Origin: Devosia faecipullorum
GTDB taxonomy: Bacteria > Pseudomonadota > Alphaproteobacteria > Rhizobiales > Devosiaceae
Direction: 5' to 3'
Length of the DNA stretch: 64,000 nucleotides
Assembly: GCF_015158295.1 (NCBI RefSeq)
Contig: NZ_JACDXV010000006.1
Span: forward strand, 1 to 64,000
In this document: positions 24,067-28,809 of the stretch, piece by piece
Position numbering within the stretch: position 1 is the first letter of the stretch
Layout of the letters: each line of letters begins with the position of its first letter
Notes under the pieces: generated by a model
The model's input: only the letters and a program-made list of their open reading frames with translations
Databases searched by the model: none
What the model was told of the DNA's origin: nothing
Program-made: the position numbers and the translations under genes

Positions 24067-24092
24067 ACATCCAAATCCCGATATGGAACGTA
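24067..24092 (+). promoter_or_regulatory. Candidate ECF-sigma promoter of the SDR gene
   Basis: ACATCC (24067-24072), 16 bases, CGTA (24089-24092). It matches the TGATCC-N16-CGTA arrangement of the two promoters near 26.6-26.7 kb at four of six -35 positions and all -10 positions, with the same spacing. Predicted transcription would start about 20 bases before the SDR ATG. Confidence 0.45.
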
Positions 24093-24119
24093 TCCCTCGT
24101 GCATAGAGGAGATTGTTTC

Positions 24120-24848
24120 ATGACCGGCACCGAGAAAATCTGGATCATTGGCGGAAGCAGCGGCATCGGCGCGGCCTTGGCGAAGGCCTTTGCGGAAGAG
24201 GGCGCCATTGTCGTGATCTCGGGCCGCAATCAGGCGTCGCTGCAACAGGTCGTCGCCCCACTGGGCCCGGCCCATGGCGCCATCGCCGCCGATGTCACCG
24301 ATATCGAGAGCCTCGAAAGCGCGGCCCGGGTGCATGGCCCTTTCGACCGCATCATCATCAGCGCTGCCACCTATGATCCCGGCGCGGTGATCGCTGCCGA
24401 TCAGGACAAGGCCGAGGCGATCATCCGGACCAATCTCATCGGCTCTTTCAATGTGGCGCGGGTGGGAACAGGTCATTTACGCAAGGGCGGACAATTGGTG
24501 CTGTTCGGCTCGGCTGCGGCGATTTTCGGCCTGCCGCAGGGGCAGGTCTATTCGGCGACCAAGGCGGGCATCGTCAATCTGGCCGAGAGCCTGCGCGTCG
24601 AACTCTGGCCGCAGGTGGATGTGAGGCTGGTGACACCGGGCTTCGTGCGTACGCCGCTCACCGACCGGAACAGTTTCGACATGCCCGCGATATTGGAACC
24701 CGAAGATGCGGCGAAACGCATCCTGCGGGGCTTGAACGGCAAAGGCTTCGAGATCGCCTTTCCGCGCCGGTTGATCTGGCCGCTCCGGCTTTTGGCCGTG
24801 CTGCCCAAGCCGCTTGCCTTTTCCCTGACCACCCGGCTCAGACAGTGA
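24120..24848 (+). CDS. SDR-family oxidoreductase in the ECF/ChrR cluster
   Basis: 242 aa short-chain dehydrogenase: IGGSSGIGAAL cofactor motif near residues 11-21, and YSATKAG catalytic motif near 143. AGGAG lies 7 bases before ATG 24120, which rules out the upstream in-frame ATG. The 3' end overlaps that of the convergent DUF2177 gene by 11 bases. Genes for SDR proteins of this kind accompany rpoE-chrR in Rhodobacter-type singlet-oxygen clusters; the substrate is unknown. Confidence 0.88.
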   Translation: MTGTEKIWIIGGSSGIGAALAKAFAEEGAIVVISGRNQASLQQVVAPLGPAHGAIAADVTDIESLESAARVHGPFDRIIISAATYDPGAVIAADQDKAEAIIRTNLIGSFNVARVGTGHLRKGGQLVLFGSAAAIFGLPQGQVYSATKAGIVNLAESLRVELWPQVDVRLVTPGFVRTPLTDRNSFDMPAILEPEDAAKRILRGLNGKGFEIAFPRRLIWPLRLLAVLPKPLAFSLTTRLRQ

Positions 24849-25254
24849 GCCGGGCCGCCCAGTAACCGCCCAGCGCCGCCGCGCCGGTGACGCCGCCGCC
24901 CCAGACCAGATCGAGAGCGCTGACCTTCCAGGACCAATCCTTGAGTGTTGCCAGGTTGGTCATGTCATAGGTGCCATAGGCGAGCAGGCCCAGCGCCAAT
25001 CCGGCCAGCAGCGCCCAGAGCCAGGACTGGGCATTGAACGCCGGAACCACGGCAAAGCCGACAATACCAACCACGTAAAAGAGATAGAACGCGCCCGCCG
25101 CCAGCACATTGGGGCGTTCGAGCAGCAATTGGCCGATTTCGGCGCGATAAAAGCCAATGGCCAGAAAGCCCAGCCAGACAAAGTCCAGCGCGAAAAACAC
25201 CAATGCCGCACCGGCATAGGCCGCGAACACAGTACCAAGCGACAATGTGGCCAT
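24838..25254 (-). CDS. DUF2177 family membrane protein
   Basis: 138 aa, four hydrophobic segments (about residues 8-30, 48-70, 78-98, 112-135). LDFVWLGFLAIGFYRAEIG and MTNLATLKDWSW are family hallmarks of DUF2177. It follows chrR by 10 bases on the same strand, so it is co-transcribed with the sigma/anti-sigma pair. Function unknown; the neighbourhood suggests membrane or lipid protection under oxidative stress. Confidence 0.88.
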   Translation of the reverse strand: MATLSLGTVFAAYAGAALVFFALDFVWLGFLAIGFYRAEIGQLLLERPNVLAAGAFYLFYVVGIVGFAVVPAFNAQSWLWALLAGLALGLLAYGTYDMTNLATLKDWSWKVSALDLVWGGGVTGAAALGGYWAARLTV

Positions 25255-25264
25255 TGGGTTCTCC

Positions 25265-25912
25265 TCAAATTCCCAGCATGGGCTGCACCAGCCGCAACAG
25301 GCGGGAGCTGAATTTCAGCGGCGCGTCGGTAACGGCAAGGCAGATGCAGTCTTCTTCGGTGCCGGCAATAGGCTGATGGGTCAGATCGCCATCGGCGTCT
25401 TCCAGATCGCCGGGCCCGAAATGATCGACCTCGTCGTGAAAGCTGCCCCGGAGCACCAGAGTCAGTTCGCGACCCCCATGGCTATGCTCGGGCACCGGCT
25501 TGCCGGCGGCGATCCGCAACAGGCGGGCCTGTGTCTGGCCATCACCGGTCCGGATCAGGACCTGCTTGGCATTACCCATATTGCGCCACTTAATATCGGC
25601 GAGATTGCCCACATAGGATCGCAAGGGCTCAGGCAGTTCGCCGGGTGAAATAGCGGGTTTGGGCACCGGCGGCACCGGCGTATCCGGCATTTCCAGCCGC
25701 GCCAGCAGGCGTTCCCAGGAATCGGCGGGACCGTCGGCGGGAGCCAGATTGTCGATCATGATGCCGGCAGCGGCCTCGATGAGGCTCAACCGCTCGCGGC
25801 AATCGGGGCACATGGCCAGATGCGTCGCCACTGCCAGCGACCAGCCCTCGGCCAGGTGGCCGGCGGCATAATCGAGCAGCAATTCGTCGTTGATGTGATG
25901 CTTGATGCTCAT
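25265..25912 (-). CDS. chrR: ChrR-family zinc anti-sigma factor with C-terminal cupin
   Basis: 215 aa. The N-terminal zinc anti-sigma domain has all four ligands at the positions known for Rhodobacter ChrR: H6, H31, C35, C38 (HLAMCPDC). The C-terminal cupin has H143, H145, E149 and H179, the expected HxH-E-H metal set. It should bind and hold the ECF sigma factor until singlet oxygen or organic peroxide releases it. ATGA overlap with the sigma gene (25909-25912) fixes the start and indicates coupled synthesis. Confidence 0.94.
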   Translation of the reverse strand: MSIKHHINDELLLDYAAGHLAEGWSLAVATHLAMCPDCRERLSLIEAAAGIMIDNLAPADGPADSWERLLARLEMPDTPVPPVPKPAISPGELPEPLRSYVGNLADIKWRNMGNAKQVLIRTGDGQTQARLLRIAAGKPVPEHSHGGRELTLVLRGSFHDEVDHFGPGDLEDADGDLTHQPIAGTEEDCICLAVTDAPLKFSSRLLRLVQPMLGI

Positions 25913-26487
25913 TTAACCGCCTCCAGTGCCGTACGCAGCCGCCCGAAGGCGAGCCGGATGCGCGACTTGACGGTGCCGATGGGCAGTCCAAGCTGCTTGG
26001 CGATGACGCTGTGGGAGGCTTCCTCGAAAAAGGAGAGCCGGATCAGTTCGATCTGTTCCTTGGGCAAAGTTTGCATGGCTTTGTGAAGGGCATCGTGGCT
26101 TTGACGCATTTCCATCTGGTTGGCGGCGTCGGGTTCGGGGGCGGCGGCAAGGGCCGGATCGTTGGGGTCGATTTCGGGGCGGCGCTGCTTGCGCCAGGCA
26201 TCGATCCAGATATTGCGCGCGATGGTGAAGATCCACGCCGAGGCAGTGCCGCGAGCGGGGTCGTATTGTCCCGCCTTGCGCCAGATCGCCAGCATGGTTT
26301 CCTGCATCAGATCCTCTGCGGCCTGAGCGTTGCGCGTCAGCTTCAGCAGGTAGGCGCGGATCCGCGGCGCATAGGATTGGAACAGAGATTGGAACGCATC
26401 CATATCCGCATGATCGGCAATAGCGAGGATTTTCGCACTAAGATCCTCAGCCGGGTCAGGAGCGGCAAGGCTCTGTTCTTTGTTCAC
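25909..26487 (-). CDS. rpoE: ECF-family RNA polymerase sigma factor (RpoE/ECF11 type)
   Basis: 192 aa when started at GTG 26487, which has GGATA 7 bases upstream; the open frame continues further but the predicted promoter at 26596-26621 lies inside that extension. Region 2 (EDLMQETMLAIWRK, TASAWIFTIARNIWID) and region 4 (SHSVIAKQLGLPIGTVKSRIRLAFGRLR) are intact. With the adjacent ChrR it forms a singlet-oxygen-type sigma/anti-sigma pair. It probably drives its own promoter, the divergent flavoprotein promoter and that of the SDR at 24.1 kb. Confidence 0.93.
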   Translation of the reverse strand: MNKEQSLAAPDPAEDLSAKILAIADHADMDAFQSLFQSYAPRIRAYLLKLTRNAQAAEDLMQETMLAIWRKAGQYDPARGTASAWIFTIARNIWIDAWRKQRRPEIDPNDPALAAAPEPDAANQMEMRQSHDALHKAMQTLPKEQIELIRLSFFEEASHSVIAKQLGLPIGTVKSRIRLAFGRLRTALEAVK

Positions 26488-26595
26488 CAACGGATATCCA
26501 TTCTTGACGCGCGCAACAAAGCGGCGGCGCAGAGGTCGCTCCCTATCTTCGCATGGCCCGGCAAGTGGGTAAATCGCAAGTGTCATGCCTGCTGC

Positions 26596-26621
26596 TACGG
26601 CAGCGCCGAAACGGCAGATCA
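26596..26621 (-). promoter_or_regulatory. Candidate ECF-sigma promoter of rpoE-chrR
   Basis: On the minus strand TGATCT (26621-26616), 16 bases, CGTA (26599-26596). It has the same layout as the divergent promoter at 26680-26705. Predicted leader to the GTG start at 26487 is about 100 bases. This implies autoregulation by the sigma factor. Confidence 0.6.
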
Positions 26622-26679
26622 CCGCGCGCGGCAAATTTCCTGTGTCGTCGAAAGACCGGCGATATTTTCGCCATAGCCA

Positions 26680-26705
26680 TGATCCGGCAGCGGGCCCGAA
26701 CCGTA
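26680..26705 (+). promoter_or_regulatory. Candidate ECF-sigma promoter of the flavoprotein-DUF1365 operon
   Basis: TGATCC (26680-26685), 16 bases, CGTA (26702-26705). TGATCC is the -35 element reported for Rhodobacter RpoE targets. The predicted start is about 23 bases before ATG 26735. Confidence 0.65.
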
Positions 26706-26734: not shown

Positions 26735-28078
26735 ATGTATCACGACCTCGCCGCCTTTTCCGGTTCGCGTCCCATGCGCCAGCGTATTGCCGTCATCGGC
26801 AGCGGCATTTCCGGGCTTTCGGCGGCCTGGCTGCTGTCAAAACGTCATGAGGTGGTGCTCTATGAGGCCGAAGCGCGGATCGGCGGCCATTCCAACACCA
26901 TAGACGTGCCGGGCACCGGGCCGGTCGATACCGGTTTCATCGTCTATAACAACCGCAATTATCCAAATCTCGAAGCCATGTTCGCCCATCTGGGCGTTGA
27001 GAGCATCGCCACCGAAATGTCCTTCGCCGCCTCGCTGGACAATGGCGATTTCGAATATTGCGGGGAAGGTATTCTGGGCATGCTGGGGCAGCGCCGCAAT
27101 GCGTTCCGCCCCCGGTTCTGGAGCCTGTTTCGCGATTTGCTGCGCTTCTACAAGGAAGCTCCCGAAGTCCTCGACCGGCCCGACATGCGCGGGCTGACAT
27201 TGGACGAATATCTGCGCAGCAACAATTATTCGCAGAGTTTCGTTGAAGGCCATCTGCTGCCCATGGCGGCGGCGATCTGGTCGTCCAAGGCCGAAGACAT
27301 CCGCGCCTATCCGCTTCTTGCCTTCGTGCGCTTCTTCGAAAGCCATGGCCTGCTGCAATTGCGCGAACGGCCCAATTGGCGCACGGTCAAGGGCGGCAGC
27401 CGCTCCTATGTCGAGGCCCTGCTCGGCCAGTTTACCGGCGAGGTGCGGCTGGCCAGTCCGGTCGCCAGGGTGCAGCGCGACAAGGCGGGCGTGACCATTA
27501 TCGATCACAAGGGCAATCCGGATCGTTTCGACAAGGTGCTGATCGCCAGCCATGCCGACCAGGCGCTGGCCATGCTCGACCAGCCGGAGACGCAGGAACG
27601 GGCGCTGCTCGGCGCGTTCCAATATACGCGCAACCTTGCCGTGGTGCACAAGGATGCGAGCCTCATGCCGCGCCGCCGGCGCGTCTGGTGCTGCTGGAAT
27701 TATATGTCCAACGGCCGGGAGGCGGAGCAAATGCTTTGCGTCACCTATTGGATGAATGCGCTGCAAAATTTCAATGGACAGGACATTTTCGTCACCCTCA
27801 ACCCGGACCGCAACCCCGAAGACGAGATCGCGCGCTTCGATTATACCCATCCCCTGTTCAACGGCGCCGCCATCCATGCGCAGGAAAATCTCTGGCGCAT
27901 CCAGGGCCACAACAATACGTTCTATGCTGGCGCCTATTTCGGACGCGGCTTCCATGAGGATGGGCTGCAATCTGGCCTTGCCGCCGCCGAGGCCATGGGA
28001 GCGATCCCGCGCCCATGGATGCTGCCAAATCCTTCGAGCCGCATCACCCTGCCGCCACTGGATGAGTTGGTGGCATGA
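26735..28078 (+). CDS. FAD-dependent oxidoreductase (amine-oxidase/desaturase-like flavoprotein)
   Basis: 447 aa from ATG 26735, or 434 from ATG 26774. An N-terminal FAD-binding motif (IAVIGSGISGLSAAWLL) and GGHSNTIDV, typical of NAD(P)/FAD amine-oxidase-like proteins related to carotenoid and fatty-acid desaturases, are followed by the C-terminal FYAGAYFGRGFHEDGLQSG FAD site. It is coupled to the DUF1365 gene (ATGA at 28075) and preceded by an ECF promoter. Homologues in RpoE/ChrR regulons modify membrane lipids. The start is uncertain because neither ATG has a strong ribosome-binding site. Confidence 0.88.
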   Translation: MYHDLAAFSGSRPMRQRIAVIGSGISGLSAAWLLSKRHEVVLYEAEARIGGHSNTIDVPGTGPVDTGFIVYNNRNYPNLEAMFAHLGVESIATEMSFAASLDNGDFEYCGEGILGMLGQRRNAFRPRFWSLFRDLLRFYKEAPEVLDRPDMRGLTLDEYLRSNNYSQSFVEGHLLPMAAAIWSSKAEDIRAYPLLAFVRFFESHGLLQLRERPNWRTVKGGSRSYVEALLGQFTGEVRLASPVARVQRDKAGVTIIDHKGNPDRFDKVLIASHADQALAMLDQPETQERALLGAFQYTRNLAVVHKDASLMPRRRRVWCCWNYMSNGREAEQMLCVTYWMNALQNFNGQDIFVTLNPDRNPEDEIARFDYTHPLFNGAAIHAQENLWRIQGHNNTFYAGAYFGRGFHEDGLQSGLAAAEAMGAIPRPWMLPNPSSRITLPPLDELVA

Positions 28079-28809
28079 ACCTGAACTCGGCCATCTATGT
28101 CGGCCATGTGGTGCATCAGCGGCACCGCCCGAAAAAGCACTTCCTGCGCTATCGGGTGTTCTCGCTGCTGATCGACCTCGAAGAATTGCCGCAGCTCAAT
28201 GGCTTGGCCCGGTTCGGCCACAATAAGCGCGCCCTGTTCTCGTTCCGCGATGCCGACCACGCCGATGGCGGCGATCTGCGGGCCTGGGCCGGTGCGCAAT
28301 TGGCGGCACAGGACCTGCCCACGCCGGGGCGCATCAGGCTGCTCTGCTATCCCCGCATTCTCGGCTATGTCTTCAATCCGCTGACGGTCTGGTATTGCGA
28401 CGATGAGTTCGGCGCGCCATTGGCCAATATCTACGAAGTGCACAACACCTTTCACGAGCGCCATACCTATGTGCTGCCGGCTCGCGCCCCCAAGCAGGAA
28501 GCGGACAAGACCTTCTATGTCTCCCCCTTCATCGACATGAATTGCCGCTATGCCTTCAAGCTGACGCCGCCCGATGAGCGAATCCTGGTGGCGATCAACC
28601 AGACACAGGACGGCGCGCCCCTGCTCCATGCCGCCTTTACCGGCGCGAGGCGCGACTTTACCGATGCCAACCTCATGAAGCTGTTCTTCAGCCATCCGCT
28701 GATGACGCTGAAAGTGACCGCCGGTATCCATTGGGAGGCGCTACGGCTGATCTTCAAGGGGATCAGGATACGCTGGCATAGCGAGCGCAAGACACCGGCA
28801 GCGGATTAA
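28075..28809 (+). CDS. DUF1365 family protein
   Basis: 244 aa. Family signatures YVGHVVHQRHRPKKHFLRYR near the start, NPLTVWYCDD near residue 101 and the FHERHTYVLP stretch are present. DUF1365 proteins are regularly linked to FAD oxidoreductases and cyclopropane-fatty-acid-synthase-like methyltransferases in singlet-oxygen regulons. Here the methyltransferase is absent downstream. No signal peptide or membrane segment; biochemical function unknown. Confidence 0.9.
   Translation: MNLNSAIYVGHVVHQRHRPKKHFLRYRVFSLLIDLEELPQLNGLARFGHNKRALFSFRDADHADGGDLRAWAGAQLAAQDLPTPGRIRLLCYPRILGYVFNPLTVWYCDDEFGAPLANIYEVHNTFHERHTYVLPARAPKQEADKTFYVSPFIDMNCRYAFKLTPPDERILVAINQTQDGAPLLHAAFTGARRDFTDANLMKLFFSHPLMTLKVTAGIHWEALRLIFKGIRIRWHSERKTPAAD

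Follow-up and report, generated by a model that had tools for sequence, protein, structure and literature searches.

A putative RpoE–ChrR stress regulon in Devosia faecipullorum with a predicted leaderless rpoE start and a non-consensus promoter element conserved among relatives

A gene cluster in a 64,000-nucleotide stretch of Devosia faecipullorum DNA (NCBI RefSeq assembly GCF_015158295.1, contig NZ_JACDXV010000006.1, positions 1 to 64,000 of the forward strand; the whole analysed stretch is called the window below) encodes the sigma factor RpoE and the anti-sigma factor ChrR, of group 11 of the extracytoplasmic function (ECF) sigma factors. The promoter motif TGATCY-N16-CGTA, or a variant of it, precedes rpoE, a divergent flavoprotein–DUF1365 operon and a gene for a short-chain dehydrogenase/reductase (SDR). 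Together with sites of the same kind at photolyase and UfaM/Cfa-like genes elsewhere in the genome, this arrangement points to an RpoE–ChrR stress regulon, a reading to which we assign a probability of roughly 0.88 on comparative sequence evidence. The system is already of a known kind, and the comparison supports an oxidant-stress regulon of this kind in Devosia. Its interest lies mainly in a predicted leaderless rpoE start, which would give a second form of RpoE, and in relatives whose ChrR lacks zinc-binding cysteines.

The RpoE sequence matches PF04542 and PF08281 (ECF regions 2 and 4.2), and its best match in the Protein Data Bank (PDB) is Rhodobacter sphaeroides RpoE (2q1z_A, E 1.2e-40). 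ChrR scored 218 bits with TIGR02451, against a cut-off of 124.5, and its best PDB match is R. sphaeroides ChrR (2z2s_B, E 1.8e-52). The zinc ligands of its anti-sigma domain (ASD), H6, H31, C35 and C38 (HHCC), are present, and so are the ligands H143, H145, E149 and H179 of its cupin domain (PF12973) in the alignment with 2z2s_B. In R. sphaeroides, zinc binding is necessary for the inhibition of sigma-E by ChrR, and E147 and H177 of ChrR are required for the response (PMC6852236). Judged by these matches and ligands, the pair is an ECF11 RpoE–ChrR system, as the preliminary description of this DNA had it.

The three promoter sites put forward in that description were all found in the sequence, with the same coordinates, strands and spacing (Table 1). 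The exact motif occurred twice in the window, against 0.16 expected, and none of 100 shuffled sequences reached two; the argument that the repetition makes chance unlikely thus stood for the divergent rpoE/flavoprotein pair. It did not stand for the SDR site taken alone: with as many as two mismatches allowed, the window held 84 matches where 72.5 (standard deviation 8.6) were expected, a number equalled or exceeded in 11 of 100 shuffles, so that the spacing alone proves nothing for one match among these. ATCC-N16-CGTA, which occurred twice where 0.96 was expected, was found as often in 26 of 100 shuffles. The end of CGTA is followed by the flavoprotein ATG (26735) after 29 nucleotides and by the SDR ATG (24120) after 27.

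Conservation of these sites was evaluated in two samples. ChrR was present in 41 of the 61 genomes searched, source genome included, and the Devosia sequences were divided into lineage A (nine with 69–75% identity, source genome included), A2 (three with 51–60%) and B (near 40%); with ten loci found later, lineage A comprised 19 loci. The other sample consisted of named relatives (the best 80 of 589, mostly Hyphomicrobiales), in which the best site within 300 bp upstream was scored out of 10 and compared with controls using the motif spacing-shifted, reversed or complemented. The rpoE site scored 9–10 in 69 of the 80 named loci (controls at most 1/80) and in all 19 lineage-A loci; among the 71 named relatives whose rpoE site reached at least 8, its −35 element read TGATCC in 63. 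A flavoprotein site of at least 8 was found in 66/74 named loci (controls 4–13/74) and 18/19 lineage-A loci, and an SDR site of at least 8 in 29/44 named loci (controls 1–5/44). DUF2177 (74 named loci) and ufaO (68) had no upstream site above 8, the same as in the controls, which is expected because they lie inside operons. The proposed promoters before rpoE, the flavoprotein–DUF1365 operon and the SDR gene were therefore in place in relatives well above controls.

At the SDR gene, CGTA lay at the N16 distance in all 17 Devosia lineage-A loci having that SDR, with GCATCC as the −35 element in 15, ACATCC in one (the window) and GCGTCC in one. Once the pattern had been noticed in the first nine loci, eight more from Devosia were read, and all eight had the site; the genomes of two of them, G082 and G091, had already been seen among the named loci as L118 and L119. 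The GCATCCA columns were conserved at 0.94–1.0, compared with a mean of 0.53 in the spacer. The placement and column conservation in relatives indicate that the SDR site is real and that its departure from TGATCC is itself kept; by this comparison, the SDR promoter is one with a fixed non-consensus −35 element. Its earlier ranking as a weaker copy is accordingly not established, because the letters by which it leaves the consensus at positions 1 and 2 are themselves conserved. Distant SDR matches downstream of chrR in lineage B (25–43% identity, best scores 7–8) were kept apart from this SDR in the counts.

The regulon had been called local, which proved too narrow. One-mismatch sites precede two genes elsewhere in the source genome: TGAACC-N16-CGTA right before the photolyase start, and GGATCC-N16-CGTA about 200 bp upstream of a UfaM/Cfa-like gene of the CMAS family. 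Photolyase sites of 9 were found in 8/9 lineage-A, 1/2 usable A2 and 10/12 lineage-B genomes, locus L072 (G017) being void because it ends at a contig edge. The CMAS comparison, covering 30 of 36 genomes, gave sites of 8–9 in 9/9 lineage-A and 0/11 lineage-B loci; in G009 and G011, the top-scoring match lies in another register and the CGTA-bearing one scores 8. In some lineage-B loci, the stretch before the CMAS gene reads by eye as the end of a DUF1365 gene, as in a ufaO–ufaM operon. The methyltransferase, flavoprotein and DUF1365 families of the furan fatty-acid genes are present with sites.

Several observations weigh against the regulon as read here. No site of at least 8 was found before rpoE in 9/80 named loci or before the SDR gene in 15/44. 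In ChrR-lacking genomes, where such sites would serve as controls, the photolyase genes (n = 4) included one site of 9 and two of 8, so that this control is not clean, and the CMAS loci (n = 8) included one site of 10 (G022, 339 bp upstream) and another of 8. Among the named loci, sites of at least 8 preceded 0/7 photolyase and 3/58 CMAS genes, the latter not above controls; many of these copies may be operon-internal. A sub-cut-off match (152 of 300 bits) linked ChrR to an NCBIfam model of a cadmium-, peroxide- and UV-responsive ChrR. In addition, the UfaD, UfaO and UfaM assignments come from family and context and not from comparison with the R. sphaeroides proteins. Conserved sites, families and gene placement are what we observe around the ECF11 pair, and from them we infer that this sigma factor recognizes the sites.

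Table 1. Promoter sites and genes of the rpoE–chrR cluster in the window
Feature	Position	Strand	Basis and remarks
rpoE autopromoter, TGATCT-N16-CGTA	26596..26621	-	motif match and conservation in relatives
Promoter of the flavoprotein (ufaD-like)–DUF1365 operon, TGATCC-N16-CGTA	26680..26705	+	motif and conservation; divergent from the rpoE promoter
SDR promoter, ACATCC-N16-CGTA	24067..24092	+	two mismatches; comparative basis
rpoE, ECF11 sigma factor	25909..26586	-	225 aa if begun at the ATG that follows CGTA by 9 nt; start of a shorter form would be near 26490
chrR, cupin-domain zinc anti-sigma factor	25265..25912	-	TIGR02451, 2z2s_B, ligands
Membrane protein with DUF2177, encoded third in the rpoE operon	24838..25254	-	PF09945
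SDR oxidoreductase, by family a core regulon gene of RSP1087 type	24120..24848	+	PF00106
UfaD (RSP1091)-like protein of the flavin amine-oxidase family, judged from family and context	26735..28078	+	PF01593
UfaO (RSP1090)-like DUF1365 protein, judged from family and context	28075..28809	+	PF07103

A further proposal, for which we consider the odds about even, is that the autopromoter fires at the start codon, giving a leaderless mRNA and an RpoE isoform longer by about 30–36 residues, and that the regulon is graded by fixed −35 departures, most sharply at the SDR gene. In the window, an in-frame rpoE ATG (26586, minus strand; 26584–26599 with the end of the promoter) follows CGTA after 9 nucleotides and lies upstream of the GTG/TTG starts near 26490. 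Among A-type loci with the exact site, an ATG open into rpoE stood at +8 to +10 in 99/102 (98 at +8 or +9 and one, L124, at +10; some genomes are counted twice), and in 52/55 after thinning at 80% ChrR identity. In B-type loci, an in-frame ATG occurred there in 0/19, with one ATG out of frame and closer than +10; the count leaves out the 32 of 153 loci without the exact motif before rpoE. With transcription starting 6–8 nucleotides after CGTA, the leader would be about 0–4 nucleotides long and too short for a Shine-Dalgarno site. Thus, the distance from CGTA to ATG predicts a leaderless rpoE mRNA and a longer RpoE. The N-terminal extension is near-constant in length and variable in sequence. 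The annotated starts of three plasmid relatives differ from this ATG, being three other starts, one of them upstream, at the promoter. An internal start was unsupported in the 51 thinned loci, where an in-frame ATG was present in 46 but a start with a Shine-Dalgarno-like word in only 14. In the limited collection of literature searched, we found no paper tying a leaderless start to ChrR and RpoE, and nothing related by title on Devosia with ChrR.

The proposed gradation was evaluated by comparing promoters within loci. Of the named loci in which both sites scored at least 8, 54 had the rpoE site nearer to the consensus than the flavoprotein site, 10 had the two equally near and none had the rpoE site further away (32, 8 and 0 after thinning at 80% ChrR identity), and the comparison with the SDR site gave 24, 5 and 0 (thinned, 13, 5 and 0). 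Such gradation is partly built in, because the published consensus derives partly from autopromoters. In the 19 lineage-A loci, the rpoE site was nearer than the flavoprotein site in 8, equal in 9 and further in 2 (G081 and the window, where TGATCT before rpoE scores 9 and TGATCC before the flavoprotein gene, the better match, scores 10), and it was nearer than the SDR site in 17/17. Mismatches at T, G, A, T, C and C of the 66 flavoprotein sites numbered 50, 31, 0, 5, 0 and 3, and those at C, G, T and A numbered 0, 0, 0 and 1. The fixed −35 departures may indicate tuned promoter strength, which we infer. An only slightly less than even chance belongs to the explanation that target promoters left the consensus by drift under relaxed constraint, at positions that are read weakly. 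This would fit the flavoprotein promoters of other genera, which vary at positions 1 and 2 (CAATCC, CGATCC, AGATCC and AAATCC), the variable position 1 of the Devosia CMAS site and the two lineage-A exceptions above; however, the deviating letters are fixed at the Devosia SDR gene, TGAACC recurs at photolyase in lineages A and B, and the rpoE site was never the further one in named loci.

As a mechanism for the regulon, RpoE would stay bound by ChrR and be set free in response to an oxidant, for which singlet oxygen or organic hydroperoxides are the probable candidates. RNA polymerase with RpoE would then read TGATCY-N16-CGTA both ways between rpoE and the flavoprotein gene, one direction amplifying rpoE–chrR–DUF2177 and the other switching on the ufaD–ufaO-like genes for furan fatty acids, a lipid product proposed from the gene families. 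The same sigma factor would read the variant GCATCC-type −35 element at the SDR gene, and outside the window the photolyase and UfaM/Cfa-like methyltransferase genes would be served by their sites of the same kind. The genus Devosia is not known to be phototrophic, and it is a distinct, though lesser, possibility that the signal is organic hydroperoxide, UV-A or metal stress rather than singlet oxygen. In line with this, sigma-E of R. sphaeroides is activated by tert-butyl hydroperoxide as well, and additional inducers are described for the Caulobacter system (PMC6852236). On the other side, the window ChrR retains the cupin residues on which the singlet-oxygen response depends; singlet oxygen as the putative signal is transferred by analogy from R. 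sphaeroides.

It is unlikely that GCATCC at the SDR gene is read by another ECF sigma factor having the same CGTA −10 element. The fixation of positions 1 and 2 as GC instead of TG could suggest such a factor, but a gcATCC site is included in the Pseudomonas syringae study with 7.15-fold induction (PMC5507510), and a search for GCATCCA-N15-CGTA in eight Devosia genomes gave 15 matches, among them the SDR promoter in all seven genomes having GCATCC there. No second GCATCC regulon was visible among the other eight matches, which are unlike in sequence; this was judged from the matches themselves and not from the genes around them. Chance resemblance of the SDR site, which the unenriched two-mismatch and ATCC-N16-CGTA counts of the window would allow, is highly improbable given the constant placement of CGTA, the conserved −35 columns and the excess over controls in named loci.

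ChrR itself varies in its zinc site. In lineage-B Devosia, both ASD cysteines are replaced (S..G) with the cupin ligands kept, as seen in loci L038–L049, L051–L052, L225–L244, L246 and L253 (several genomes twice), and the second cysteine is also lost in an Agrobacterium/Rhizobium group, Nitratireductor and R. lemnae. On a tree of 147 different ChrR sequences, 29 of which lack one cysteine or both, no fewer than four changes are needed to explain the loss; the tree retained the columns of the trait itself and carries a long-branch warning. Zinc-less ChrR deserves attention because zinc binding is required for inhibition by R. sphaeroides ChrR (PMC6852236), and its natural occurrence bears on which part of the protein, the zinc site or the cupin domain, would be the sensor of singlet oxygen. 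In the same tree, the clade of the window ChrR (L023–L031 and relatives; 20 Devosia rows) joins 12 Rhizobiaceae-type rows (98/89), apart from the B-type Devosiaceae, and transfer is a possible cause of this grouping. Genome G034 holds two lineage-A chrR copies.

In the source genome as a whole, TGATCY-N15..17-CGTA had 22 matches, compared with one for the pattern read backwards; 14 of the 22 lie inside other genes by a rough codon-bias call of open reading frames (ORFs). Further sites precede, by eye, a histidine kinase gene (L006), a PadR/RND operon (L012) and gcrA (L020, N15). At L217 (G002), TGATCC-N16-CGTA stands 47 bp before an ORF that looks by its motif like a methionine sulfoxide reductase. 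A perfect TGATCC-N16-CGTA faces the end of tolB (source genome, G000:C2:727284-727309, minus strand); after it come a short stretch in which no ORF is conserved and a hairpin (L293–L296, L298–L301). This site, scoring 10, was initially present in 8/9 lineage-A genomes, source genome included; predicted for ten further lineage-A genomes, it was found in only two. Over both sets, it occurred in 10/19 lineage-A, 0/3 A2, 1/19 lineage-B and 0/17 ChrR-lacking genomes, and the stretch had no Rfam match above the gathering score. As most of this follow-up failed, the putative small RNA is a candidate and a lead for a subclade. In 7/8 aligned genomes, an element resembling AAACT-N16-CGTA lies downstream of the tolB-facing site and is directed toward a FAS1-like gene that it precedes; the element and the name of the gene were both read by eye.

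Among known systems, the nearest is R. sphaeroides sigma-E–ChrR (ECF11), with which the window shares homologous sigma and anti-sigma factors, the kept ligands, and SDR, flavoprotein, DUF1365, photolyase and cfa-type genes with sites. It differs in that RpoE here is predicted to carry additional N-terminal residues and to be translated from a leaderless message, for which SigR' of Streptomyces offers a parallel as a distinct isoform made by auto-activation. In R. sphaeroides, moreover, ufaD, ufaO and RSP1087 are described in one operon, whereas the SDR gene here stands apart as a unit preceded by a variant promoter of its own. The published core regulon contains these gene kinds (PMC5507510, PMC6852236). 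The PSPTO_1043/1042 regulon of P. syringae, for which the consensus TGATCC-N16-CGTA was published, shares this motif, autoregulation and variant −35 elements (gcATCC and aGATCC), and differs in having its core-regulon relatives away from the sigma gene locus and other extended genes (PMC5507510). In the furan fatty-acid genes of R. sphaeroides, UfaD is RSP1091, UfaO, which contains DUF1365, is RSP1090 and UfaM is RSP2144 (PMC7380195). The window resembles this arrangement in a flavoprotein gene followed by a DUF1365 gene beside an ECF11 system, with the methyltransferase gene elsewhere in the genome; in Rhodopseudomonas palustris, by contrast, ufaM, ufaD and ufaO are three neighbours by locus number (PMC7380195). 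One described Devosia contains 4.7% 11-methyl C18:1, a fatty acid like the UfaM product (PMC5644702), and the likeness to these systems would tie two loosely annotated genes, those of the flavoprotein and the DUF1365 protein, to the making of furan fatty acids.

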